Source of the DNA: [Mycobacterium] nativiensis
Lineage (GTDB): Bacteria > Actinomycetota > Actinomycetes > Mycobacteriales > Mycobacteriaceae
NCBI RefSeq assembly: GCF_020172685.1
Contig: NZ_CP083986.1
Location: 4,782,672-4,794,062 of the forward strand
Direction of reading: 5' to 3'
DNA length: 11,391 nt
Made by a program: the position numbers and the translations under genes. Numbering within the stretch: the first letter of the stretch is position 1; each line of letters opens with the position of its first letter. Below the pieces are notes generated by a model. The model saw only the letters and a list, made by a program, of their open reading frames with translations. It had not been told where the DNA came from and did not search any database. Below are positions 1-11,391 of the stretch, in pieces.

Positions 1-36
1 TTATCTGGTGTCGCGAGCATGTGTGTATGACTGTTA

Positions 37-73
37 CCGATTAGGTGCGTCCCGTGCCGATCAGCCTAATCGG
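37..73. repeat. Perfect 9-bp inverted repeat
   Basis: CCGATTAGG at 37-45 is matched exactly by its reverse complement CCTAATCGG at 65-73, with a 19-base loop. It lies downstream of the tetR stop on the minus strand. There is no T-run on either side, so it is not a convincing intrinsic terminator. It could be an operator or RNA hairpin for a gene left of the window. The rest of 1-181 shows no gene that I can support. Confidence 0.5.
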
Positions 74-181
74 GAACGATTGAATCGCACGGTGTGCCCG
101 CCTAGGGATTGCGCGGCTGCCATCCCGGCCCGTTTCTCCTGTCGCCTGCCCGGTTGCACTGATTGCGCCCCGGGAGAGGGC

Positions 182-877
182 TCACCCCGGGCGGTTGTCG
201 TCTGTGCCCCTTTGACCGTCGGGCTGTGGAACTGCGGATTGGGCTTCCTGGGTCCGGTGAGTGGCCAGGAAGTCGTCGACGATGCGGGCGCAGTCGTGTG
301 CGGTGATGGATCGCAGGCCGGTCATTCGTGCGAACGCGAGTGGTCCGATGAGTTGGCACAGTGCGAGATCCGGGTCCAGGCCGTCGAATTCAGCAGCGGC
401 CTCAATGTCTTGCAGGATGGCGTCGAAGGGCTGCCGGTATTGGTTGATGACCCGCGCTCGCAGCGCCTGCGGGGCATGTTCGGTGCTGGCGTGATCGATT
501 GTGGTCGGGCCCAGGGCGAGCCAGGCCAGCATGGTGATGTGTGCTGGGGCGTCGGCGAACAGCGCAGACTGTCGGGTGAGCAGTTCGATGAGTCGTTCGC
601 GCAATGTCCCACTGGCCGGCCCGGGTGGGGTTACTTGAGGTAAGAGTCGCTCGAAGGTGGCCGCGAGCAACTGCGATGAGCTGCCGAAATGGCGGTAGAG
701 GGTGGTGCGGGCCACCTTGGAAGCTTTGGTGACCGCCTCGATGGTGACGGCTTCGATGCCACCGCTGCTGAGCAGCGCGGTCGCGGCGTCGAGCAAGCGG
801 TTGCGCGACCGGGTCCGGCGGGGGTCAATATCGTCGTCATCGGGCACCGGCGGTACCTGCTCGCTGCTCACACCCAC
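182..877 (-). CDS. TetR/AcrR family transcriptional regulator
   Basis: This is probably a ligand-responsive dimeric repressor. The N-terminal TetR DNA-binding domain is clear at about residues 22-72: a first helix with RNRLLDAAT, then the helix-turn-helix with VTIEAVTKASKVARTTLYRHF at about 44-64, whose TTLYRHFG is the family hallmark. The remaining ~150 residues are helical and variable, as expected of a ligand/dimer domain, and do not reveal the ligand. Length (231 aa) is normal for the family. The start at 877 is GTG. A second GTG at 871 is better placed behind the GAGGGG purine run at about 884-889, so the protein may be two residues shorter. The gene diverges from the thioesterase gene. 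The shared spacer holds a 16-bp palindrome that is a good operator candidate, implying autoregulation and control of the neighbours. The tail after residue ~210 is polar and probably disordered. Confidence 0.93.
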   Translation of the reverse strand: MGVSSEQVPPVPDDDDIDPRRTRSRNRLLDAATALLSSGGIEAVTIEAVTKASKVARTTLYRHFGSSSQLLAATFERLLPQVTPPGPASGTLRERLIELLTRQSALFADAPAHITMLAWLALGPTTIDHASTEHAPQALRARVINQYRQPFDAILQDIEAAAEFDGLDPDLALCQLIGPLAFARMTGLRSITAHDCARIVDDFLATHRTQEAQSAVPQPDGQRGTDDNRPG

Positions 878-936
878 TCACCCCTCGCCTCATTCCAGAT
901 TCCCGACCAATTACCCGCGTCACCGCCCGTAACGGG

Positions 937-952
937 TACCGTACCAACGGTA
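937..952. promoter_or_regulatory. Candidate TetR operator in the divergent spacer
   Basis: TACCGTACCAACGGTA is a perfect 6-4-6 inverted repeat, overlapped on its left by the 5-1-5 palindrome GGTACCGTACC (935-945). It sits in the 101-base spacer between the divergent tetR (start 877) and thioesterase (start 979) genes, 26 bases before the latter. Size, symmetry and place fit a TetR-type operator. Flanking motifs CCCGTAACG (926-934) and GTAGCGCAGCG (950-960) recur in the next intergenic region. Binding is inferred. Confidence 0.55.
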
Positions 953-978
953 GCGCAGCGAAACTATGTGTACCGAAG

Positions 979-1536
979 GTGTCGTTGGTGGCCGATCACT
1001 CACCGCATCACGATGTCGCGTCCGGCCGCTCGGGTGCGGCACGGCCTGAGCTGCTGCCCGCACATACTCGGACGTGTATGGGTTGCGGACCGCAGAATCC
1101 GCACGGTCTGCAGCTGGTGGTTTACCGCAGCGGCGACACGGTGTACGCGGACGTGACTTTCGACGAACGCCACGTCGGCGCGCCCGGTCTGGCGCACGGC
1201 GGGGCGGTCGCCGCCGCCTGCGACGACGTGCTGGGGTTCGCGCTGTGGATTGCCGGCGCGCCCGCTGTGACACGCAGCCTGACCGTCGAATACCTCCAGC
1301 CGGTCGTGCTGCATCGATCCCACCGCATCACCGCGCACATTGCCTCCCGGGAAGGCCGCGTGCTGCACATCGGCGCAACCGGCACCGACCCCGAGGGGGC
1401 CACCCGATTCACCGCAAATGCGGTGTTCGTCGTGGTCACCGCCGATCACTTCGCCGCCTATGGCGACGTAGCAGCGTTCGAACATCTTCTTCGGCGGCTC
1501 GGGGACAACGGGGCGCCGAGCGATCCGGAATCCTGA
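979..1536 (+). CDS. PaaI-type hotdog-fold thioesterase
   Basis: This is a probable acyl-CoA (or acyl carrier) thioesterase of the PaaI/4HBT hotdog superfamily, acting in the cytosol. The domain spans about residues 33-158. The central helix carries the diagnostic GLAHGGAVAAACDD (70-83), with HGG at 73-75 and acidic D82/D83, one of which is likely catalytic. The strand TVEYLQPV is also typical. Near the front is TCMGCGPQNPHGLQL, with C33 and C36, a common opening of actinobacterial PaaI-like proteins. About 30 residues precede the domain and look disordered, so the GTG start at 979 may be too early. There is only a weak GAAGG immediately before it. The gene faces away from tetR across a palindromic spacer and reads toward the DUF6188-like and mmpL genes, suggesting a role in processing the acyl compound that the transporter handles or responds to. 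The substrate cannot be read from the sequence. Confidence 0.88.
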   Translation: MSLVADHSPHHDVASGRSGAARPELLPAHTRTCMGCGPQNPHGLQLVVYRSGDTVYADVTFDERHVGAPGLAHGGAVAAACDDVLGFALWIAGAPAVTRSLTVEYLQPVVLHRSHRITAHIASREGRVLHIGATGTDPEGATRFTANAVFVVVTADHFAAYGDVAAFEHLLRRLGDNGAPSDPES

Positions 1537-1543
1537 CCCGCAA

Positions 1544-1587
1544 CCCGTAACGCTATTACTAGTAGCGCAGCGCTACTTGCCGTACCA
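1544..1587. promoter_or_regulatory. Second palindromic regulatory site, sharing motifs with the tetR operator region
   Basis: AGTAGCGCAGCGCTACT (1561-1577) is a perfect 8-1-8 palindrome, preceded by a second palindrome TACTAGTA (1557-1564). Three motifs match the tetR/thioesterase spacer exactly: CCCGTAACG (1544-1552 and 926-934), GTAGCGCAGCG (1562-1572 and 950-960) and CCGTACCA (1580-1587 and 939-946). The first two are separated by 9 bases here and by 15 bases there. This is probably a second binding site for the same regulator, placed just before the DUF6188-like gene. It could instead act as a hairpin between the two genes. Confidence 0.5.
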
Positions 1588-1615
1588 TTTCAGTGCAGAC
1601 CGGTTGGGCGTCGAC

Positions 1616-1620
1616 GGAGG
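1616..1620 (+). promoter_or_regulatory. Ribosome binding site GGAGG for the DUF6188-like gene
   Basis: A full GGAGG lies six bases before the ATG at 1627. It is the clearest Shine-Dalgarno sequence on the plus strand here and fixes that start. Confidence 0.8.
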
Positions 1621-1626
1621 TGCGCG

Positions 1627-2061
1627 ATGTACACCACGTGGATCGAAGGTTGCACCGTGCAGCGGATGTCGTTGCAGGGTGATCTGGTGTTGAGCTTTGA
1701 TGACGCCAACGAGGTAGTCATCAGTTGCCTGCTGTGGCTTGCCCTGCCGGCTAGCGGTGAGTTTCCGGCCGAGGAAGTGCTCATCGACCCGCGCGAGGTC
1801 GCCGCCCACCAACGTCCGCTACTGGATCTGGCGGGTGCGGTGTGCACGAAGGCATGCCACGACGATTCCGGTCGGCTACTCCTGAGCTTCTCCAACGGCC
1901 TGCGCATCGAGGTCAGCGCCAACGAGCGCGCCACCGCCTGGGAGCTCTACGGCAAACACCACGGTTACATGGCGTGCCTGCCGCACGGCAGGGTCAAGGT
2001 GGTCCGCCATGACATCCCCTACGACGAGGACGACAATGCCGGTGCAACGACCCCCAACTAA
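1627..2061 (+). CDS. DUF6188-like protein, function unknown
   Basis: This is a 144-residue, probably cytosolic protein with no signal peptide or membrane segment. Alternating hydrophobic strands suggest a beta-rich fold made of two similar halves. Each half has a 'hydrophobic strand, Asp/Asn, Gly or Glu, hydrophobic strand' pattern: LVLSFDDANEVVIS at about 19-32 and LLLSFSNGLRIEVS at about 84-97. The second half is followed by a TAWELYG stretch. That arrangement resembles the DUF6188 family of mycobacteria, as I recall it; the role of that family is unknown. The ATG start is set by a strong GGAGG. The gene ends 54 bases before mmpL and probably shares its transcript, so it may be an accessory factor of the transporter. 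The last ~15 residues are acidic and polar. Confidence 0.7.
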   Translation: MYTTWIEGCTVQRMSLQGDLVLSFDDANEVVISCLLWLALPASGEFPAEEVLIDPREVAAHQRPLLDLAGAVCTKACHDDSGRLLLSFSNGLRIEVSANERATAWELYGKHHGYMACLPHGRVKVVRHDIPYDEDDNAGATTPN

Positions 2062-2115
2062 GGATCTTCGTCATCGCCGGCAGCCGAGTCATTGTGACCG
2101 GCGGCAGCGTCTTTC

Positions 2116-5100
2116 GTGGGCGCAGGCGCGGTGAGTGCGGACAACCCGGGCGGTGCGGGCACGGCAACCCTGCCTGTGCGGGCCCGCAACGGGGTGGCCG
2201 ATCCGGGCCAATCCAGTGAGTACAGCAGCCGGTTAGCAACACTGGCCGGGTTCACGGTGCGTCATAAAGCACTGGTCATCGGCGGCTGGATCGCCGTCGC
2301 CGTGCTGCTTGCACTGGTGTTCCCGCAGCTGGAAACGGTGGTACGGCAGCAATCGGTGAACCTGATCCCCCGCGACGCCGCGTCGTTTCAAACCGTGGAC
2401 CGCATGAGCGCGGCCTTCGGTGAACAGGGCTCCAAAACGATGCTGGTCGTGGCGATGGAAGACCCCGACGGCTTAACCGCGCCGGTGCGCAACCGCTATG
2501 AGCAGTTGGTGGTGCAGCTGCGCGCCGATACCGACCACGTCTTGCTGGTTCAAGATCTGCTCGCCGACCCGGTCACCGCGGCGCATGCGACCAGCAATGA
2601 CGGCAAAGCCTGGTATCTGCCGGTGGGTGTGGCCGGCACCCTGGGTGACCCCAAGGCCGCCGAATCCGTCCAAGCCGTGCGCGACATCGCCGCCGGTTTA
2701 TTCGCCGGTTCACCGACGACCGTGCACGTGACGGGCCCGGCGGCCACCTTCAACGACCAGATCGCTGCCGCCGAACACGACCTGCTGCTGATCTCGATCG
2801 CCACCGCCGCGCTGATCGCACTGATCCTGCTGATTGTCTACCGGTCGGTGTTCACCGCCTTGCTGCCCCTGCTGGTGATCGGGGTCAGCCTGGCCGTCGG
2901 CCGTGGTGTGCTGTCTGTCCTCGGCGAGAGCGGCATGCCCGTCTCGCAGTTCACCGTGGCGTTCATGACCGTGATCCTGCTCGGGGCGGGCACCGACTAC
3001 ACGGTGTTTTTGATCAGCCGCTACCACGAACAGCGCCGCGCACATGTCCCCGCCGATCAGGCCGTCATTCATGCCACCGCCAGCATCGGGCGCGTGATCC
3101 TGGCCTCGGCGGCCACCGTTGCGCTGGCCTTTTTTGCCATGGTTTTCGCTCGCCTCAGTGTTTTCGCCGGGCTCGGCCCGGCCTGCGCGGTCGCCGTGCT
3201 GGTCGGATTCCTGGCCACCGTGACCCTGTTGCCGCCGGTGCTGGCGCTGGCCGCCCGCCGTGGAATCGGCGAGCCGAAATCCGATCGAACCCGCCGCTAC
3301 TGGAACAGTGTCGCTGTCGCGGTGGTCCGCCGGCCGGTGCCACTGTTGGCCGTGAGCCTGGTGATCCTGCTGGCCCTCTCGGCCATCGCCACCACGATGA
3401 AGATCAGCTACGACGACCGCAAAGGCCAGCCTGCCACCACCGCCAGCAACCAGGGTTACCAACTGCTGGATCGCCACTTCCCCAAAGACGTCGTCATCAC
3501 CGAATTTCTCGTCGTGGAGAACCCCGACGACATGCGCACCAGCAAAGGTCTGGCCGACCTCGACGAGATGGCCTCCCGGGTCGCCCAAGTATCCGGGGTC
3601 ACCAAAGTCATCGGGATAACCCGCCCCACCGGCACCCGTCTCGAACAAGCCCAACTGTCTTGGCAGAACAGGCAGATCGGCGACAAGATGGCCGACGCCG
3701 TCGCCGATGGCGACGCACGAAAAGGCGACCTCACTCAACTCACCGACGGCGCCGATCAACTCGCTGGCGGCCTGGCCCAGCTCGATGCCGCCCTGCACGC
3801 GATCTTGACCCCGCTGTCGGGCGTACTGGCCCGAGCCCAATCCGGTGACACCCTGCTGTGGTCATCTCGACCGTTGCTGCAAGAACTTTCGGCCTCCGCA
3901 CCCACCGTCGACCAAGCCATCCAATCCGGCCCCGGGCTGCGGTCGCGGGCGGATCAAGCCGAAACCGCCCTCGCCGTGCTGGCCCCCCTCGTCGATGGCC
4001 TGAACACTTCCGAGTGGTGTGCCACCACGCCGCAATGCGCGCAAATCCGTAACCAGGTCCGGATCCTGGTGAGTTTGCGCGATAACGGATTCTTCACCGA
4101 AGTCGCCACCCTCGGCGATCGCTACAACCCTGACACCGACGCCACCATTGCTGGCACCCTTGCCGACATACAAGCCGCTGCCGCAGCACTTGACAAGGCC
4201 TTCGGAACTCAGGGTGATCCCGCGGACCCGGCCGGCAACATCGGCCGGCTCCAAGAGGGCGTCGGCCAACTCGCTTCCGGGGCGCAAGCGCTGGCCGCCG
4301 GTGTGCACGCCCTGGCCGACAGCAACATCGAAATGTTGGCTCGGATGGGCCAGGTCGCCGCCCAACTGCAGAACTCGGCCCGCGCCAGCGCCGGCTCTGA
4401 CGCAGCGAGCGGTTTCTACCTGCCCGCCAGTGCCTTCGATAACCGTCAATTCACCGACGTTGCCAAACAATTCCTCTCACCCGATGGCAAAACCGCCCGC
4501 TTTGTCGTCGAATCCAGCTACGACCCCTACAGCGCGCAGGCGATCACCCTCGCCCGCCAGATCGTCGAGACCGCCGACACCGCCCGCCCCAACACCACCC
4601 TGGCCAACGCCACTATCGCCGTTGCCGGGTTCCCCGCCGTCAACTCCGACATCCAACGGCTCCTGTCGGCTGACTTCACCCAACTGGCCATCAGCACCCT
4701 GGTCATCGTCGGACTCATCCTCATCCTGCTCTTGCGCGCCCTGCTCGCCCCGCTATACCTGCTGGGGACGGTCGTGCTGAACTACCTGGCCTCACTGGGC
4801 ATCGGAGTGCTGGTCTTCCAATGGGGACTCGGCTACGAAATCGCCTGGCCCGTCCCGTTGCTGGCTTTCATCATCCTGGTAGCCGTCGGCGCCGACTACA
4901 ACATGCTGCTCGTCTCACGGCTGCGGGAGGAATCCAAACACAACATTCGCGTAGGGGTACTGCGCACCGTCGCCCGCACCGGCTCGGTCATCACCTCGGC
5001 CGGAATCATCTTCGCCGCCAGCATGTTCGGACTGATGTTCGGCTCCATCGCGATCATGATCCAAGTCGGCCTCATCATCGGCTGCGGACTCCTACTCGAC

Positions 5101-5247
5101 ACATTCCTCGTTCGCACCCTCACCGTCCCCGCCATCGCCACACTCCTGCGCGAAGCCAGCTGGTGGCCCAACACGCCGCGCTCTATCCCACCTCCACACC
5201 GTCAGGCCCGCCTGAGCGATCCGTATTACGACACAGGCACCCTGTAA
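2116..5247 (+). CDS. mmpL: MmpL-family RND transporter
   Basis: This is an inner-membrane RND exporter of the MmpL group, whose members move lipids, siderophores or drugs across the mycobacterial cell envelope using the proton gradient. One membrane helix lies at about 52-70. A first periplasmic domain covers about 71-220, then a helix bundle covers about 222-380 and continues into 406-425. A large second periplasmic region runs to about 855, and the last bundle is about 857-1010. The paired proton-relay signatures are both intact: GTDYTVFLISR (D294, Y295) and GADYNMLLVSR (D927, Y928). Region ~530-760 is a long helical insert with heptad-like QLAGGLAQLDAAL and QLASGAQALAAG stretches, like the coiled-coil arm of MmpL4/MmpL5-type proteins. 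It carries a likely disulfide pair, C635 and C641. The start is uncertain: GTG 2116 or GTG 2131, both with weak ribosome sites; a stop at 2095 bars anything earlier. No mmpS gene is adjacent. Substrate unknown. Confidence 0.95.
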   Translation: MGAGAVSADNPGGAGTATLPVRARNGVADPGQSSEYSSRLATLAGFTVRHKALVIGGWIAVAVLLALVFPQLETVVRQQSVNLIPRDAASFQTVDRMSAAFGEQGSKTMLVVAMEDPDGLTAPVRNRYEQLVVQLRADTDHVLLVQDLLADPVTAAHATSNDGKAWYLPVGVAGTLGDPKAAESVQAVRDIAAGLFAGSPTTVHVTGPAATFNDQIAAAEHDLLLISIATAALIALILLIVYRSVFTALLPLLVIGVSLAVGRGVLSVLGESGMPVSQFTVAFMTVILLGAGTDYTVFLISRYHEQRRAHVPADQAVIHATASIGRVILASAATVALAFFAMVFARLSVFAGLGPACAVAVLVGFLATVTLLPPVLALAARRGIGEPKSDRTRRYWNSVAVAVVRRPVPLLAVSLVILLALSAIATTMKISYDDRKGQPATTASNQGYQLLDRHFPKDVVITEFLVVENPDDMRTSKGLADLDEMASRVAQVSGVTKVIGITRPTGTRLEQAQLSWQNRQIGDKMADAVADGDARKGDLTQLTDGADQLAGGLAQLDAALHAILTPLSGVLARAQSGDTLLWSSRPLLQELSASAPTVDQAIQSGPGLRSRADQAETALAVLAPLVDGLNTSEWCATTPQCAQIRNQVRILVSLRDNGFFTEVATLGDRYNPDTDATIAGTLADIQAAAAALDKAFGTQGDPADPAGNIGRLQEGVGQLASGAQALAAGVHALADSNIEMLARMGQVAAQLQNSARASAGSDAASGFYLPASAFDNRQFTDVAKQFLSPDGKTARFVVESSYDPYSAQAITLARQIVETADTARPNTTLANATIAVAGFPAVNSDIQRLLSADFTQLAISTLVIVGLILILLLRALLAPLYLLGTVVLNYLASLGIGVLVFQWGLGYEIAWPVPLLAFIILVAVGADYNMLLVSRLREESKHNIRVGVLRTVARTGSVITSAGIIFAASMFGLMFGSIAIMIQVGLIIGCGLLLDTFLVRTLTVPAIATLLREASWWPNTPRSIPPPHRQARLSDPYYDTGTL

Positions 5248-5319
5248 CCGCCGCAGATTGGGGGATTACGGCTACGGGTGCGTGGTTTCGGCGCCACAAT
5301 GGCTGGAATCGCGAGTGAA

Positions 5320-5379
5320 GTGCAGGCGGTGCCCCAAGCCGTTGTTGCGATGGCACCCATTAGCCGCCGCCCCCTGCAC
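5320..5379. repeat. Nested inverted repeats spanning the tnpC 3' end
   Basis: The outer arms are GTGCAGG (5320-5326) and CCTGCAC (5373-5379). The inner arms are GGTGCC (5328-5333) and GGCACC (5352-5357). The structure covers the tnpC stop codon (5360-5362) and lies in the 112-base gap after mmpL. It may be a shared terminator for the converging transcripts, although no T-run is present, or a site near the left end of the mobile element. The rest of 5248-5359 shows nothing that I recognise. Confidence 0.4.
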
Positions 5380-5773
5380 CGTTTCCGGCGTCGAGTTGTC
5401 CGTAGAGCAGTGCGATTGTCGATTCTTGTTCGGCAAGCTTGGTTCTCAGTGCGCGGATCTCACCGTCCTTGGCGACCAGTTGGGCACGTAGGGCGGCTAC
5501 GACGGTGCTCTCGCGGCCCGTCGCGGCGTCGAGCGAAGGCGGCTGGCGTCGGTAGGCGTCGATGATCGCGACGAGGTCGCGGTGCTTGTAGACGGTCTTG
5601 CGTTCTACGCCGGCGCGGGCAGCGACGGTGGATATGTTGATGATGGCGTTGGTCTTGCGCAGGTGTTTGATGGCGCGTTCGATATCCCGGCGCTTGGTCT
5701 GGGAGATGTTCTTACGGTAGTCGGCCAGGGCGCGGCGGGCGTTATCCGAAGGGGGAGGGGGGCGTTGCCTCAT
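5360..5773 (-). CDS. TnpC-like (DUF6262-like) HTH and coiled-coil protein
   Basis: This is a 137-residue basic protein matching the small third protein of Tn554-type recombination trios (TnpC of Tn554 is about 125 aa). In that transposon TnpC helps, but is less essential than, TnpA and TnpB. A basic helix (about 14-40) is followed by a likely helix-turn-helix, ISTVAARAGVERKTVYKHRDL (47-67), the usual core of this family. A coiled coil (about 89-127) carries LRAQLVAKDGEIRALRTKLAEQ, and the tail is Gly-rich. The ATG at 5773 overlaps the tnpB stop as ATGA, and no ribosome site is visible, so translation is probably coupled to tnpB. The frame stays open upstream to 5968, but that extension is Arg-rich and out of frame with tnpB, so it was not used. 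It is inferred to bind DNA or the recombinases. The family name is from memory. Confidence 0.82.
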   Translation of the reverse strand: MRQRPPPPSDNARRALADYRKNISQTKRRDIERAIKHLRKTNAIINISTVAARAGVERKTVYKHRDLVAIIDAYRRQPPSLDAATGRESTVVAALRAQLVAKDGEIRALRTKLAEQESTIALLYGQLDAGNGAGGGG

Positions 5774-7998
5774 CCGGGTGCGTTGGGGTCGGCTTTGCGT
5801 AGAACAGATTCGTGGCTGCCGCGGGTCTTGACCTTCAACAGCGGCAACCGGTTTGAGGCACCAGCACCGCCCACACTGGCTCCGTTCGCGAGGCCCTCGG
5901 TGTCGGTGTGCAGACGCTCGATGATCGCGTCCAGAGAGGCGATCTCCCGGCGCCGTTCGTGAATCCACACGTTGTCGTCGGTGAGTTCCCGCCCGCTACG
6001 TCGCCGGTACTGTTCGCGGCGGACCTCGATCAAGTTGACGGTCTTGGCGCGCTGCGCGATCAATTCGTCGAGATGAGTGGCGTCGGTGGCGAAATGCCCG
6101 CATGACAGACAAGCATTTCCTTTGTCACAGCTCTTCAGCGGAGGAAGCAGGCACACGCCGTTGGGAAGTACCCGATCCGTGCGGGCCGCCAGTTGAGTCA
6201 TGTCATAAATATCGGATGGACTGATTGCGATATCGGTGCCGTGTGCGCCGACCTTCTTGTGCCGCAGGAATTCTGACTCAGCTGTTGCAGCAAGCGTCGC
6301 AGCGTAGCGCAGGGTCATCTCAGGGGATGCGTGCCCAAGGTATCGCTGTACCACGTGAATGGGAACGCCGTCGTTTAGCAACTCGGTGGCCCGGGTATGG
6401 CGCAGCCGATGGGTCTGGCTGAACCGCAGCGGACGCCCGGCCGAGTCGGCCAGGCCGTGAACCTTGTCGAGTTTGTTCAGTGCCACACCGTAGGACTGGT
6501 AGGTGCGGGCCCGGTGGCCCTGATGCTGGTGGCGCAGTCCGAGGAACAGGTACTTCGGGCTCAGCCCAGGGTAGCGGCGGCGAACCCACTGTTGCTGTTC
6601 GGTGATCACGTTGACCACCGCCTTCTCAACCAGGATCGACGGCAGTACCCCGTCGACCTTGGTCTGCTGGTAGCGCAACTTGGCGACGAATGCGTTGGGG
6701 TCATCGGAATCTGTGGGGCGTTCCGGGCCGGGAATAGCGGTCAGAGGGTCGAAGTCGAGCATCAGTATCTCCGAGGCTCGGCGTCCGGTCAGCGCCTGCA
6801 GCAGCCAGACGCGCGCGGCTTGCGGGTCTCCGAGGCCGGCGACAACCGAGATCGTTGCATCAGGGTGAGTGATGGCCACCGGCATACCGCGATCGGCCGC
6901 CAGCACATCGAGGTAGCACAGCATCTGCTGCAATTCCGACGTGGAGAACCACGTCAGCTCCCGCTGCCGGTTGGCGCGGCGCGTTCGAAACGCCGCGCCC
7001 CACAGACGCGTGTAGGTGTCGGTGATCTGAGCCCACCGGGGGTCGCCGGTCGCCGCAGCGGCTTCCTCGGCGTGATCAACCATGAAGGCGTAGAACACCT
7101 GGGCCTGCGACTGGGTCGAGTCCACCGCGGATGCTGACAACGGCCGGTCTGGTTTGAACTGTGCGGATGGGGATTTCAGGTAGTTGGAGAACTCGGTGAA
7201 CAACAACCGCAGGGCGGCGCGGTCATCGGCCAACAGTGGGGTGCTGATGTTGCGGGCGGCCAAGAACGGGCCGAGGTGCCTGGCCATGTTGCGAGCACGA
7301 TCGGCTACCGATGACCAGCGCAGCAATTCCGCGGTTATGGAGGTGCGCAGCCAGAACCGCACGCCCTCACGCAGCCAGGGCGGGTGGATCGCGGCAAGTT
7401 TGACGACTTGGTCATGGCTGGGTTCATGTTCGCGCTGTGGTATGCGGGGATCAGCCCGTAGATCCCAGATGTCATGGGCCCACCACGGGGCATCGGTGCA
7501 GCGCACCGATACGTAAAGATGCAGGTGCTCGATCAAGGCCACGACCTGGCGCCGAGCCCCCGCGGAGGGCAGGCGGGCGTTGCGGCGCTCAAAGCGCACC
7601 ACGGCGTGACGTACGACATCCTCGGCCGCGAGGTCTGCAATGCTCACTGGAGGCCGGTGATACCGCTGCTGGTGCTCGGCGGCGGCGTCGGTCAAGGCGA
7701 CGGCCGTCCACTTCAGCAGGAACGGCTCGATCTTGCGGATTCCTTCGTGGCCGCACAACCACACCCACCACGCCATTTCTTGGCGAAAGCGTTCTGGGAC
7801 ATCGGCGGGGGTGAAGTCGTGGCCGTCGGGATTGTTCAGGTAGCGCTGGTTGCGCACGAACACGGCGTCGAACGGTGCAGCGTCGATGCGGTAGTGCAAA
7901 GTTCGCCACGATTCAGGGACCTGCTGCCATTGCCGATCCCACACGGTGGCCGCCGCGGATCCTGCAGAATCGACGTGACTGTTACGGGGTTGAGTCAT
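5770..7998 (-). CDS. TnpB-like tyrosine recombinase with Cys-rich C-terminus
   Basis: This is a large (742 aa) phage-integrase-family recombinase corresponding to TnpB of Tn554-like trios. Residues 1-190 form a long N-terminal extension and about 195-310 a core-binding region. The catalytic domain is about 350-580, with all active-site residues visible: R407 in TGRRASE, K447 in QQTKVDG, H530/R533/H534 in HRLRHTRA, H556 in YLGHAS and the nucleophile Y565 in LRYAAT. After it comes a putative zinc-binding knot with C616, C624, C630, C633 and H635 (CLLPPLKSC, then CLSCGHF), followed by a charged helix (about 642-700). That tail is typical of this recombinase group and absent from ordinary integrases. 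The ATG at 7998 has a good GGAAGG site (8005-8010) and overlaps the end of tnpA by 17 bases. The protein is probably active. Confidence 0.92.
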   Translation of the reverse strand: MTQPRNSHVDSAGSAAATVWDRQWQQVPESWRTLHYRIDAAPFDAVFVRNQRYLNNPDGHDFTPADVPERFRQEMAWWVWLCGHEGIRKIEPFLLKWTAVALTDAAAEHQQRYHRPPVSIADLAAEDVVRHAVVRFERRNARLPSAGARRQVVALIEHLHLYVSVRCTDAPWWAHDIWDLRADPRIPQREHEPSHDQVVKLAAIHPPWLREGVRFWLRTSITAELLRWSSVADRARNMARHLGPFLAARNISTPLLADDRAALRLLFTEFSNYLKSPSAQFKPDRPLSASAVDSTQSQAQVFYAFMVDHAEEAAAATGDPRWAQITDTYTRLWGAAFRTRRANRQRELTWFSTSELQQMLCYLDVLAADRGMPVAITHPDATISVVAGLGDPQAARVWLLQALTGRRASEILMLDFDPLTAIPGPERPTDSDDPNAFVAKLRYQQTKVDGVLPSILVEKAVVNVITEQQQWVRRRYPGLSPKYLFLGLRHQHQGHRARTYQSYGVALNKLDKVHGLADSAGRPLRFSQTHRLRHTRATELLNDGVPIHVVQRYLGHASPEMTLRYAATLAATAESEFLRHKKVGAHGTDIAISPSDIYDMTQLAARTDRVLPNGVCLLPPLKSCDKGNACLSCGHFATDATHLDELIAQRAKTVNLIEVRREQYRRRSGRELTDDNVWIHERRREIASLDAIIERLHTDTEGLANGASVGGAGASNRLPLLKVKTRGSHESVLRKADPNAPG

Positions 7999-9286
7999 GG
8001 CTCACCTTCCAGCCGGCGACGAAGCTCTTCCACTGCGCGACCGTGCGCATCTCGGCGTCGGCGGTCACCCACCCGTAGATCGACAGCGTGGTCTGCACAT
8101 CGGCGTGGCCGAGACGGCGCATCACCACGTGTTCAGGCACCCCAGACAACAGCAGAGCTGTAGCGTGGGTGTGGCGCAGCCAGTGAGGAGTCCAGTCCTG
8201 CGGCAACACATCAGCATGGGCGGCCGTGAGGGTGTCCACCTTGTCGTAGACGGTTTCCGGGCGCAACGGTGCATAGCGCTGGCCGCGTGCCAGATTGACG
8301 AACACGAAGTGCGACGCCAGATCGGCAACCGCGACGTCGGCGGCCCACCCGATCAGCTGCCACACGTACTCGCTGTAGAGGGCTACCAGATCATCGCCGA
8401 TGTAGATCCGGCGTGCACCGGACTTGGCTCGTACCCCATGGGGGTGATCGTCGCGGCCGGCCACCAGAATCGACGGAGTCTCACCCCCGGTGATATGGAA
8501 ATCATTGTGGCGCAAAGATAATGCTTCACCTATTCGCATTCCGGTCTCGGCCAGGACGGCGAAGAATAACCGGTCACGCAAACCCGCCTCGCTGCCGGTC
8601 CACTCACCCGACGGCGACTGCACACTGCAGCCATCCAGGATGGCGTTGACTTGATCGGGCAACAACACCGGCGTCTCGCTGCGATTGGGTGCACGCCGGC
8701 GGTGCACAGGCACCTCCTGATCACGTCGCGGTCCGACACCAGCCAGGGTGGGGGCATAGCGGCGCCGCGAGGATCGGGCGTGGGAGGAAAACAAGCGGCG
8801 GTACGGGCGGGTCAAATCGTGGGCGTCGGCGAAGTACCGGTACATCGACAACACCGCAGCCCCCCGCGGCTGCAACGACGACTCGGCCATCCCAGGCCCG
8901 GGCTCACCGATACGGACCATGCCCGGCAGATCCCCAGTCCGCAGATAACACAGGAACTCGCCAAACAGGCTAGTGGGAAAATCATCCCAGGCCGCGCCGG
9001 TGTGTTCGAGCACCGTCCACCACGCCGATAGCCCGTATGCGTAGGCACGCACCGTATTTGGAGACGCGCCCTGATCTGCGAGGAACCGCAAGTACTCTCG
9101 GGCAGGTGCAACGGGTAGCCGATCGGCGCCGACCACCGTGTAGGTATCAGGCCGGTCCGGGAAACACAGCCGCTGCACCCGCGCCACGTTCAGCAGCCTC
9201 TCGCGCCGTTCATGGAGTTTTACCGCGACGGAAATCGTCGAGGCGGACCACTTGATGCCGCTCTTCCGGGGCTGATCCGCTAGCAC
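7982..9286 (-). CDS. TnpA-like tyrosine recombinase
   Basis: This is a tyrosine site-specific recombinase corresponding to TnpA of Tn554-like trios (TnpA of Tn554 is about 361 aa; here up to 434). The SAM-like core-binding domain is at about 60-165, with AREYLRFLADQGASPNTVRAY at its front. The catalytic domain is about 205-425. Active-site residues are complete: R251 in TGMRIGEAL, K288 in VRAKSG, H368/R371/H372 in HWLRHTHA, H394 in RLGHAD and nucleophile Y404 in LSIYGWV. The longest start is GTG at 9286, which overlaps the XRE-ImmA gene by 77 bases and has a poor ribosome site. A GTG at 9187 has GAGAGG nine bases upstream and begins 22 bases after the XRE-ImmA stop, so the protein may really be 401 residues. 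Either way the two genes are probably co-transcribed. Confidence 0.92.
   Translation of the reverse strand: MLADQPRKSGIKWSASTISVAVKLHERRERLLNVARVQRLCFPDRPDTYTVVGADRLPVAPAREYLRFLADQGASPNTVRAYAYGLSAWWTVLEHTGAAWDDFPTSLFGEFLCYLRTGDLPGMVRIGEPGPGMAESSLQPRGAAVLSMYRYFADAHDLTRPYRRLFSSHARSSRRRYAPTLAGVGPRRDQEVPVHRRRAPNRSETPVLLPDQVNAILDGCSVQSPSGEWTGSEAGLRDRLFFAVLAETGMRIGEALSLRHNDFHITGGETPSILVAGRDDHPHGVRAKSGARRIYIGDDLVALYSEYVWQLIGWAADVAVADLASHFVFVNLARGQRYAPLRPETVYDKVDTLTAAHADVLPQDWTPHWLRHTHATALLLSGVPEHVVMRRLGHADVQTTLSIYGWVTADAEMRTVAQWKSFVAGWKVSHDSTP
8005..8010 (-). promoter_or_regulatory. Ribosome binding site for tnpB
   Basis: GGAAGG on the minus strand lies six bases before the ATG at 7998, inside the end of tnpA. 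It supports this start and shows that tnpB can initiate on its own despite the overlap. Confidence 0.7.
9197..9202 (-). promoter_or_regulatory. Ribosome binding site for an alternative tnpA start
   Basis: GAGAGG on the minus strand is nine bases before the in-frame GTG at 9187. This is the best Shine-Dalgarno sequence near the tnpA 5' end and argues for the shorter protein, which would then begin just after the XRE-ImmA stop at 9210-9212. Confidence 0.5.
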
Positions 9287-10463
9287 CGCGCATCCCGACG
9301 GCAGCCATCGGGCGCCTGTCAGATGCAGGTGAAGGCCGTTGCGTAGCCAGGAACCATTCGAGCAGATCCGATGGAAATATCATTGACTCGCGTGCGGCCA
9401 GCATCGGCACCGAGGCATCCCCGTAGCAGCGTTCCACCCACTTGCGCAGCAGCCTGGGCCGCTCGGGGTCACGTTCGTTCCATCCGGGTTCCGTCATACC
9501 CCAGGTATGCCCAGTCTCAGGATTGATCCGTGAATACAGTTGTGTGGTAAGCATTTTTGCGCGATCAGCGTCGATCAATCCCGAGTCACGCATGTGCATG
9601 ATCAGCGAACCCAACGACAAGCCCCACTTGTCCTTGAGCGGTTTGAGGTTCAACAGTGACATCACCTGTGGCAACTCCGGCGCCAGCGCGGCGACGGGCG
9701 CCAACAACTCGGTGGCGAACCGGTTGGCCTCCAACTCCTCGCCCGAGTTCACCGAGCAGTGCCCACGGCTGTGCAACACCAAATGCCCCAACTCATGGGC
9801 AACGGTGAATCGGGTCCGTTCCCACGACTCGGATTCGCGCAACACTACGAGCGGGCGATCCCGGTGTCGTCCCACCCAACTCGAATAACCCAAGTGCTTC
9901 TCGTCACGCGCTCTCCCCGGTGTGGCCGCGAACTCGCTCTCCCACTCACCCGGAGTGCGCCGCCGGACGATCACCGGTGCACCCAATCGCTCAGTTTCAT
10001 ACATCAAATCATCCAGTGGCTCATGAGGTTCTAGCCCCATCGCCTCGCGCAGCCACCCTGCGGCCTGGACCGCGCTCGGCCGGTGATGATCCTTGCCGCA
10101 GATCGACGGGACCTTCACATGAGGCAATTTCGACCGCTCATCCAGGTCGCCGAGAAAATCGCCGGCGAGCGAAGCGAACGTCGCCAAGAAGTCCTGCTCG
10201 CCAACAGTCATCGACTTTGGCGCCCGGAAAAGCAACTCACCCGCCGATACGCGAGACTGCGGTTCCGAGCTGAAAAACCGTGCAGGAAAGCGGAACAACT
10301 CCGACAGCCCCGCAACCTCATCAACGGACAACATGATCGTCGAAGACTTCTCGATCTTCGTCTGGCGGGCATTGCTCCAGCCAACCAGGCCCACCACAGA
10401 AGTTGCCGTCATGCGCCGCAATAGCCGGGCCTGCCGGACCCGTGCACCAAAAACCTCGATCAT
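9210..10463 (-). CDS. Fused XRE-type HTH and ImmA/IrrE metallopeptidase
   Basis: A 417-residue fusion of a DNA-binding domain and a zinc peptidase. Residues 1-65 form an XRE-like HTH (FGARVRQARLLRRMTATSVVGLVG, then Q34-TKIEKSS) continuing into LSVDEVAGLSELFRFPARFF, the usual linker in XRE-ImmA fusions. The peptidase domain is about 130-260, with the HExxH site in FTVAHELGHLVLH (H223, E224, H227). A glutamate in EELEANRFATELL (242-254) is the expected third zinc ligand. The C-terminal ~160 residues are helical and of no family I recognise. ImmA of ICEBs1 cleaves the ImmR repressor to allow excision, and IrrE of Deinococcus cleaves DdrO. Fused XRE-ImmA proteins also often pair with a toxin. Here it lies between an unknown gene and tnpA, overlapping or abutting tnpA. 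The likely roles are controlling the recombinases, or acting as antitoxin to the upstream protein. ATG start; weak ribosome site. Confidence 0.9.
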   Translation of the reverse strand: MIEVFGARVRQARLLRRMTATSVVGLVGWSNARQTKIEKSSTIMLSVDEVAGLSELFRFPARFFSSEPQSRVSAGELLFRAPKSMTVGEQDFLATFASLAGDFLGDLDERSKLPHVKVPSICGKDHHRPSAVQAAGWLREAMGLEPHEPLDDLMYETERLGAPVIVRRRTPGEWESEFAATPGRARDEKHLGYSSWVGRHRDRPLVVLRESESWERTRFTVAHELGHLVLHSRGHCSVNSGEELEANRFATELLAPVAALAPELPQVMSLLNLKPLKDKWGLSLGSLIMHMRDSGLIDADRAKMLTTQLYSRINPETGHTWGMTEPGWNERDPERPRLLRKWVERCYGDASVPMLAARESMIFPSDLLEWFLATQRPSPASDRRPMAAVGMRGASGSAPEERHQVVRLDDFRRGKTP

Positions 10464-10527
10464 CGTGCGCTCGATTCAACATCACCCGAGTGGGAGCCCC
10501 GCATGCACCCAGCAGTGTGCACGAGGG

Positions 10528-11304
10528 CTACGACGATTCCGGCGGCGCTTCGTTCAGTGTCTCCTCGGTGACGCCGTCGGCATCCGCGAAGTCCTCGTCC
10601 CGGCGCCGCTTTCCGGGCATTGCAACCTCGGTAGCCTGCGTGAACGGATCCATGGTGGGTGCCGTTTTCGCACGCTGCTCCATGATCGGTGGCGGCAGCG
10701 GAGTGCTGGCGTAGAGTACCTGAACCTTGTCGGTGAGTATGCCCGCAGCCAAGACCGCACCACCCAAGCCCAGATTGCCTGGCCACCACAGTACGTATTG
10801 CCGATACCCGGGAGGCTCCGGAATGCCATCCCCGCCGCCGATTGGGTACCCCAATTCCTCCTCGATACTCAGCTGATGCTCGCCGGGCACATACTCCACC
10901 GATTCGAGCAGGCTGCCGTCCCAGTTGCGTGGATGTTTGCGCACCCCGATACGAGACCCCTTCCCGTCGACCAGAACAATCCCAAACCCGTTGCCCTTGA
11001 TCGCCTTCAAAGTCGAGTCCTCGGTCTGGCGACGCCACCTCGAGAACAGCAACGTCTCCAGCAGCGTGCATGACACGGTGATTCCTCGGGGATCGTTCCC
11101 CTGATCGACGTACCGGTCCGGAACCTCCGCCAACCTCGCACACAGATCGCCATGCGTTTCGCCCAACACGAGAGCATGCTGCTCGACGAACTTCTCCACC
11201 AGCAGTTGTGGATTGTCGTGTAGGTCCATGGGGTGAATTTTTACCCCGGTATCCCACATCGGCCGGCGCGCCACGCCGTGCAAACTTGGAAAATGTTTGG
11301 CCAA
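10528..11304 (-). CDS. Unrecognised protein paired with XRE-ImmA
   Basis: I do not recognise this protein (up to 258 aa). There is no signal peptide, and the one hydrophobic run (GGAVLAAGIL, about 182-191) is too short for a membrane span. An N-terminal helical part (about 26-95) includes LLVEKFVEQHALVLGETH and LLETLLFSRWRRQ. A strand-rich middle and end (about 100-205) holds FGIVLVDGKGSRIGVRKHP, YVLWWPG and VQVLYASTPLPPP. The last ~45 residues are charged and probably disordered. This layout resembles the uncharacterised partners often found before XRE-ImmA genes in actinobacteria, as I recall them. The pair is separated by 64 bases. The start is doubtful: 11304 is TTG, with ATG at 11259 and ATG at 11229 as alternatives. 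The last gives 233 aa and leaves the helical domain whole. It may be the toxin or effector partner of the XRE-ImmA protein, but no nuclease motif is visible. Confidence 0.72.
   Translation of the reverse strand: MAKHFPSLHGVARRPMWDTGVKIHPMDLHDNPQLLVEKFVEQHALVLGETHGDLCARLAEVPDRYVDQGNDPRGITVSCTLLETLLFSRWRRQTEDSTLKAIKGNGFGIVLVDGKGSRIGVRKHPRNWDGSLLESVEYVPGEHQLSIEEELGYPIGGGDGIPEPPGYRQYVLWWPGNLGLGGAVLAAGILTDKVQVLYASTPLPPPIMEQRAKTAPTMDPFTQATEVAMPGKRRRDEDFADADGVTEETLNEAPPESS
11230..11247. promoter_or_regulatory. Near-perfect palindrome just before an internal ATG
   Basis: GGGGT (11230-11234) and ACCCC (11243-11247) flank an eight-base AT-rich centre, directly upstream of the candidate ATG at 11229 on the minus strand. 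If translation starts there, this may be an operator for the XRE domain or a small hairpin over the start. Confidence 0.35.
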
Positions 11305-11391
11305 CCATACCTAAGAGGATACATGTATACGATGATTAATGTGCAGGTAAACACGCTGATTGACCAATAGAACGTGTTAAACCTCTGATAA
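11305..11391 (-). promoter_or_regulatory. AT-rich upstream region with possible promoter and palindromes
   Basis: This stretch is clearly more AT-rich than the rest of the window. On the minus strand it offers TTTACC (11346-11351) and TATACA (11324-11329) with 16-base spacing, a modest match to sigma-70 -35 and -10 boxes. The proposed -10 overlaps the perfect palindrome ATACATGTAT (11319-11328), a good place for a repressor. Further up, GGTAAACACG (11346-11355) is mirrored by CGTGTTAAACC (11373-11383) with a one-base bulge. It is probably the promoter/operator of the five-gene minus-strand run, autoregulated by the XRE domain. The window ends here, so an element end cannot be excluded. Confidence 0.45.

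Follow-up and report, generated by a model that had tools for sequence, protein, structure and literature searches.

The window, as the whole stretch of 11,391 nucleotides of [Mycobacterium] nativiensis analysed here is called, is exactly one Tn554-like element, terminus to terminus. Five minus-strand genes run inward from its left end in the order gene 1, XRE-ImmA gene (rmrA), tnpA, tnpB and tnpC. They combine two known kinds of unit, a pair resembling the RosmerTA toxin-antitoxin systems and a trio of recombinase genes, called Tn554-like here after the original prediction. The toxin-antitoxin-like pair is a constant part of the element between its end and its recombinase genes, where it may guard or switch the movement of the element.

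The original prediction described the five genes as a run at 5360..11304. All of them are present in the order it stated and within this range, but the range is too small, as the feature is the whole window. Three starts (gene 1, tnpA and tnpC) were moved according to where homologs begin. Gene 1 (10528..11229, minus strand, 233 amino acids), the fast-evolving partner and probable RmrT-like toxin, most likely starts at the ATG at 11229 shared by many homologs. The next gene, rmrA (9210..10463, minus strand, 417 amino acids), encodes the RmrA-like antitoxin and probable repressor, in which the zinc motif HELGH is kept. The tyrosine recombinase gene tnpA (7982..9187, minus strand) most likely starts at the GTG at 9187, 22 bases past the rmrA stop; of the two junctions proposed earlier, the 22-base spacing can therefore be retained and the 77-base overlap is dispensable. 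A second tyrosine recombinase of 742 amino acids is encoded by tnpB (5770..7998, minus strand), and the DUF6262-like tnpC (5360..5773, minus strand, 137 amino acids) most likely starts at the ATG at 5773, overlapping the tnpB stop, with several relatives of 128-153 amino acids.

Linkage of the pair to the recombinase trio

A scan of named genomes kept 80 of 167 RmrA relatives, of which the 52 with at least 42% identity constitute the close loci (L101-L152). The tnpA gene lies directly downstream of rmrA in 50 of these 52, with tnpB in 49 of the 50 and tnpC in 43; where tnpB or tnpC is missing, the contig or locus ends first. The two close loci without tnpA are in Nocardia (L121, the same locus as L040 of the family sample) and Pseudonocardia (L151, which retains a tnpC-like stretch). 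A related gene 1 stands upstream of rmrA in 49 of the 52, the remaining three being cut by contig ends, and so provides the conserved adjacent partner gene of a RosmerTA system (L050 of the family sample has no partner). Intergenic gaps are short in the 41 loci compared, with medians of 61 and 21 nucleotides, and the extremes represent broken or overlapping genes. Apparent frame breaks occur in rmrA and in tnpB in L152 (Mycolicibacterium septicum) and L110.

The same linkage is seen in a sample of 201 genomes of the family, where 14 places, one of them the window, have an RmrA that aligns over most of its length with 45% identity or more; 12 of these continue into the trio. All 12 intact trios of this sample with a TnpB at least 58% identical, again including the window, have the pair. 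Two more trios were found at the order level, one with all five genes (L211) and one decayed, with an rmrA remnant (L212); the family search scored at most five candidates per genome and the order-level search at most two, so these counts are lower bounds. On plasmids, all 13 records with a TnpB at least 59% identical carry an RmrA at least 46% identical, and the two genes are adjacent in eight records and at least 7 kilobases apart or on different strands in the other five. The original prediction would have been contradicted by homologs of pair and trio living mostly apart. In this subfamily, instead, the trio accompanies the pair in nearly every case, the intact trios examined in the clade all have the pair, and the proposed count of co-occurrence among homologs came out in favour of one unit. 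A chance neighbourhood of the XRE-ImmA gene and the trio is rejected by the linkage in 50 of 52 loci and by the single TnpB clade described below.

Origin and divergence of the unit

More distant trios, with TnpB at 33-47% identity, lack the pair in all 12 cases examined (L084, L085, L087, L088, L089 and L213-L219), among which L087, L088 and L213 are broken and L219 has its tnpA and tnpB about 4 kilobases apart. Before counting, L086 (contig edge) was excluded, as were the trio fragments L083, L090, L091, L092 and L100, some of them at contig edges, in which no tnpA, gene 1 or rmrA was found. Also excluded were the very distant trios L093-L098, in which no pair was found (L095 and L097 are short), and L099, whose rmrA is weak and divergent. 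A tree of TnpB from 28 non-redundant trios with the pair and 9 without it places all those with the pair in one clade, supported at 100/99, subject to a long-branch warning from the program and to the counting of L086 as pair-less though cut by a contig edge.

The sequences of the pair-less L084 and L085 agree from a TTATC onward and differ before it, and by eye this TTATC lies 110 nucleotides before tnpA. Their left end is thus too near to tnpA for the pair to fit in between. Such an end close before tnpA is clear by eye only in these two; TTATC sites are also present there in L089, L093, L094 and L096, and no exact TTATC site was found close before tnpA in L087, L088, L098 and L099. The simplest history compatible with these sequences would be that the pair was taken up once, between left end and tnpA.

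The distances of the genes rise together across 28 non-redundant elements, with r=0.93 for gene 1 and rmrA, 0.85 for rmrA and tnpA, 0.88 for tnpA and tnpB, 0.81 for gene 1 and tnpA, 0.75 for rmrA and tnpB, and 0.71 for gene 1 and tnpB. These correlations are uncorrected for kinship and omit 11 of the 52 loci with incomplete or unusual genes, plus 13 near-copies.

A separate arrangement was noted in L210 (genome G158, 508-5721), where a distant trio has before its tnpA an uncharacterised 242-amino-acid gene and a divergent XRE-ImmA gene, with an MMPL-like gene beyond. The pattern of L099 is similar, and in these loci an ImmA protein may have joined a recombinase trio a second time, independently of the first.

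Proteins of the pair and the trio

The XRE-ImmA protein matches the RmrA model of PADLOC, which represents the RosmerTA antitoxin, at 5e-44. It also matches antitox_spr1629 of NCBIfam (1.1e-15; 57.6 bits, far under the model cut-off of 335) and Peptidase_M78 of Pfam (5e-13). It joins, as a RosmerTA antitoxin does, an XRE helix-turn-helix (HTH) and an ImmA/M78 domain in one protein, although the N-terminal HTH match falls under the Pfam cut-off. The HExxH peptidase motif is kept in 52 of 52 RmrA proteins, and a search of nine window proteins found no second XRE protein. RosmerTA antitoxins counteract toxins (PMC10440598; PMC12795458). Since they are the nearest described family, a toxin-antitoxin pair is the first reading.

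The genome that holds the window has two further RmrA genes. One (L050, contig C106, 6080-8777) encodes a protein 46-48% identical, preceded by a 488-amino-acid protein of coiled-coil-like appearance; the other (L052, contig C122, 7277-8999) is a standard RosmerTA locus with an RmrT match of 8.6e-34 and an RmrA of 27-30% identity, and could serve as a control. Both were rejected as relatives of the trio-linked system, as neither adjoins a trio.

Gene 1 probably encodes a divergent RmrT-like toxin, a reading favoured by its position, its partner and a possibly similar predicted fold, but not by sequence comparison. The earlier suggestion for this gene was a signal input or a toxin, of which the toxin appears to fit better. 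No Pfam, NCBIfam or PHROGs family matches it at E 0.001, and 33 other relatives were found among 5.8 billion proteins, the named ones from mycobacteria or unspecified actinomycetes. It is the fastest-evolving gene, with a median identity of 25% as against 48, 65 and 63% for rmrA, tnpA and tnpB. Its predicted fold gives weak matches, many of them to restriction enzymes (best Foldseek E 0.47), which presumably share the PD-(D/E)XK fold, and a standard RmrT yields weak matches of the same kind. An active PD-(D/E)XK nuclease was set aside, no complete catalytic motif being seen by eye, and the fold remains a hint.

Several residues of gene 1 are strongly conserved. D88 and R97 are each kept in 73 of 76 sequences. 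At residue 119, which immediately precedes a low-confidence loop, 73 of 76 sequences have a Q, mostly followed by [LMYF]-x-[LIF], and in the low-confidence tail D213 and F214 are near-invariant (75 of 76 each). Q119 and the DF of the tail are, judging by this conservation, possible short binding motifs. A sliding-clamp binder like RipA was considered and not adopted; the likeness to the clamp motif is only partial and serves as a lead.

In the trio, TnpA and TnpB match Phage_integrase of Pfam, and TnpC matches DUF6262 under the cut-off (23.6 against 29 bits). The catalytic HxxRH motif is found in 39 of 41 TnpA and 41 of 41 TnpB, and all 41 sequences of either protein have the LGH..Y motif. The operon thus has the two tyrosine recombinases with catalytic motifs, in the order tnpA-tnpB-tnpC, that are expected of a Tn554-like element.

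Candidate control sites

The palindrome TACATGTA (11320..11327, minus strand), a candidate operator, lies upstream of gene 1 at a -10-like box recognised by eye and is the sole copy in the element. Of 46 loci, 41 have the palindrome, complete or one base short, upstream of gene 1; the count omits 6 of the 52 close loci (3 with the upstream region cut, 3 without gene 1). Elsewhere in those operons, palindromes of this type occur at only 4 sites in 241,385 nucleotides. The palindrome was found before tnpA in none of the 12 pair-less trios, four of which are very distant. An inverted repeat GGGGTAAAAATTCACCCC (11230..11247, minus strand), seen by eye directly before the start of gene 1 and also in the nearest relatives, is a possible second operator or translation control. 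A consensus scan of 5200-11391 for sigma-70-like promoters found none; as none was found before gene 1 either, the scan does not decide on a separate promoter of tnpA.

Termini, target site and cargo

The element occupies 1..11391 on the minus strand, with its left terminus, TTATCAG, at 11385..11391 and its right terminus, CCAGATAA, at 1..8, whose GATAA is the inverse of the TTATC at the left. Its extent follows from these ends, as the minus strand of the window starts with the one and finishes with the other. In Mycolicibacter MYC098, tadA is interrupted by an element of equal length and ends, identical over the 10,179 bases compared. Sequence of tadA is likewise present on both flanking contigs in the window's own genome, so the site of the element is this pilus ATPase gene.

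Of 28 loci examined, 27 (all but L125) have a TTATC[ACTG]G site with differing flanks 121-169 nucleotides before gene 1; these 28 of the 52 had been picked after a first look at upstream sequences. No left-end site was found within 190 nucleotides before gene 1 in L123, L126, L128, L129, L133 and L137, and in L129-L132 the left end lies some 6 kilobases further upstream of gene 1. Right ends finish in GATAA. In L183-L190 there is often a second GATAA-ending repeat (such as CTACAGATAA) about 80 bases before the terminus, which is perhaps a recombinase arm site. No right end was found within the stretch fetched for L105, L109, L111-L115, L118, L119, L135 and L141, and L124 and L150 gave candidate right-end sites with no convincing join.

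Insertion is precise, as removal of TTATC...GATAA restores the tadA frame in all 10 elements read at both ends; element lengths range from 9,574 to 39,092 bases. The restored tadA has six extra bases at the left border, which vary among elements; the comparison is with L192, the sole uninterrupted tadA readable across the site, which lacks them. At the left borders of L101, L103, L135, L136, L138-L142, L144, L145 and L147, six variable bases stand between a CACCTG-like tadA motif and TTATC, with L135 deviating more. In this they resemble coupling bases, known from other mobile elements with tyrosine recombinases. A second target, common to the left flanks of L109 and L112-L115, is a coding sequence, presumably of an Orn/Lys/Arg decarboxylase. 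A near-identical element of about 12.1 kilobases, with about 6 kilobases of extra sequence before gene 1, is found in four species (L129-L132). Its left flanks differ among them, which marks a recent move of the whole unit.

The assembly of the window's own genome is suggestive of excision. One contig stops 37 bases inside the left end, another begins 36 bases inside the right end, and the element is a separate contig; exact matches to both terminal sequences are confined to these contigs. A single site was found, yet the assembly is broken at either end of the element, as would be expected if inserted and excised forms were mixed; a hidden second copy or an artefact of the assembler would be the alternative. 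Contigs also end at most one base from the terminus in L106, L108, L134 and L143 (left) and in L126, L128 and L131 (right), and at most five bases from it in L120. A circle keeping one six-base border would be expected to lengthen the element contig by a few bases, and a mixture of both borders would fit.

Four genes are regarded as cargo because they lie between tnpC and the right terminus. They encode an MMPL family transporter (2116..5247, plus strand), a DUF6188 protein (1627..2061, plus strand), a thioesterase (4HBT, PaaI-like; 979..1536, plus strand) and a TetR family regulator (182..877, minus strand). A Mycobacterium dioxanotrophicus plasmid has the same five genes followed by a similar gene set, and among elements this stretch differs in length and content.

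Proposed role of the pair and alternative explanations

The reading we favour, with rather modest confidence, is that a RosmerTA-type pair within a Tn554-like recombinase operon serves as retention module and expression switch. The unit, its order, its membership of one clade, its termini, cargo and tadA site, the conserved peptidase motif and the conserved palindrome are features of the sequence itself. The signs of excision are indirect, and co-transcription, repression, toxicity, neutralisation and trigger are inferred, as is the control of toxin and recombinases together by a single repressor-antitoxin. The pair would have entered the operon once, between left end and tnpA, and then stayed. 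The XRE half of RmrA would most likely bind the TACATGTA palindrome at a single promoter and repress all five genes, and the ImmA half, or RmrA as a whole, would restrain gene 1. Loss or inactivation of RmrA, whether by element loss, replication stress or phage attack, would release gene 1 and the recombinases together. The pair would in the first place be a retention module for an excising element, and also the expression switch of that element. A bolder version, which we regard as rather unlikely, makes RmrA a sensor, repressor and antitoxin in one protein, so that its inactivation by stress or phage would arm the toxin and turn on the recombinases, and the element would excise as the host halts. 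The switch of transposition in the original prediction fares partly well by comparison with these data. The genes are one conserved unit with the pair placed where control is possible, but there is no separate repressor to cut, HTH and peptidase being in one polypeptide.

Several observations weigh against the favoured reading. The linkage is confined to close relatives: in the named genomes, the 28 RmrA relatives with 22-34% identity all lack a trio, and none of four plasmid RmrA at 34-43% examined has one directly downstream (one of these four has a trio nearby on the other strand). L040 and L050, close RmrA loci of the family sample, are without the trio, and L050 also without gene 1. The linkage and palindrome counts include near-identical copies, the named-genome set overlaps the family sample, and the palindrome is absent upstream of gene 1 in 5 of 46 loci. 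For the toxin itself, no PADLOC family, RmrT included, matched the window gene 1 or six relatives up to E=10, and a profile comparison of gene 1 with RmrT reached a probability of 0.3%. Larger alignments gave 1.6% locally and 11% when forced globally (P 6e-4, one comparison). The pair is called RosmerTA-like, and not a member, because gene 1 matches no RmrT model. Such a match need not define RosmerTA, as RmrTs are described as different toxins (PMC10440598).

That the pair is only anti-phage or addiction cargo, sharing the operon by history and with no influence on transposition, is a doubtful but serious alternative. RosmerTA systems act against phages (PMC10440598), RmrA relatives beyond this clade stand without the trio, and the content from tnpC to the right end does vary. 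Cargo normally varies, however, whereas the clade keeps this pair throughout and the pair diverges in step with the recombinases; it also sits directly before tnpA with short gaps, away from the other cargo. It is quite improbable that the ImmA domain acts as a signal sensor which cuts either its own HTH or gene 1 and thereby frees the recombinase operon, with gene 1 as signal input and not as toxin. The universal HExxH (52 of 52 RmrA) agrees with such a switch, as do the HTH cleavage suggested for Rosmer-like antitoxins (PMC10440598), the rapid evolution of gene 1 (median identity 25%), as a sensor might show, and the near-invariant DF in its low-confidence tail, a possible recognition site; yet a separate repressor is not seen in the window and the nearest described relatives are antitoxins. 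We give very little credence to gene 1 as a recombination accessory, such as a directionality factor that binds DNA at the element ends, with RmrA as its regulator, since gene 1 also accompanies an RmrA without a trio (L040), pair-less trios manage without it, and its weak fold matches are of a kind that a standard RmrT shows as well.

If the favoured reading holds, toxin-antitoxin systems of the phage-defence type would be tied directly to the control of transposon movement. The element family, chromosomal as well as plasmid-borne, extends from mycobacteria to Gordonia, Tsukamurella and a small number of further actinomycetes, with transporter and other cargo. Its near-identical copies have defined ends and occupy different sites from one species to another, which makes them a ready test case for excision with and without the pair.

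Comparison with known systems

The ImmR/ImmA system of ICEBs1 resembles the window in having XRE and ImmA functions near the recombination genes of a mobile element (PMC10440598). The two functions are there in two proteins according to the same text, whereas the window has one fused protein and another partner. An arrangement in which an ImmA protein cuts a second protein, the XRE repressor, is not the one seen here. RosmerTA (RmrT/RmrA), including RipA/RipB (Spr1630/Spr1629), likewise combines an antitoxin-type protein of XRE and ImmA (M78) parts with a neighbouring partner gene; the window differs in that its partner matches no RmrT model and its pair is joined to a recombinase operon. Tn554-like transposons share the two tyrosine recombinases, the small DUF6262-like protein, the overlapping operon and the precise insertion in one gene. 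The window element differs from them in its pair between left end and tnpA, its short inverted TTATC/GATAA ends and its frequent target, tadA. A precedent is the Tn3 family, where toxin-antitoxin pairs can be an integral part of transposition modules, from which the window differs both in the pair and in the type of recombinase.

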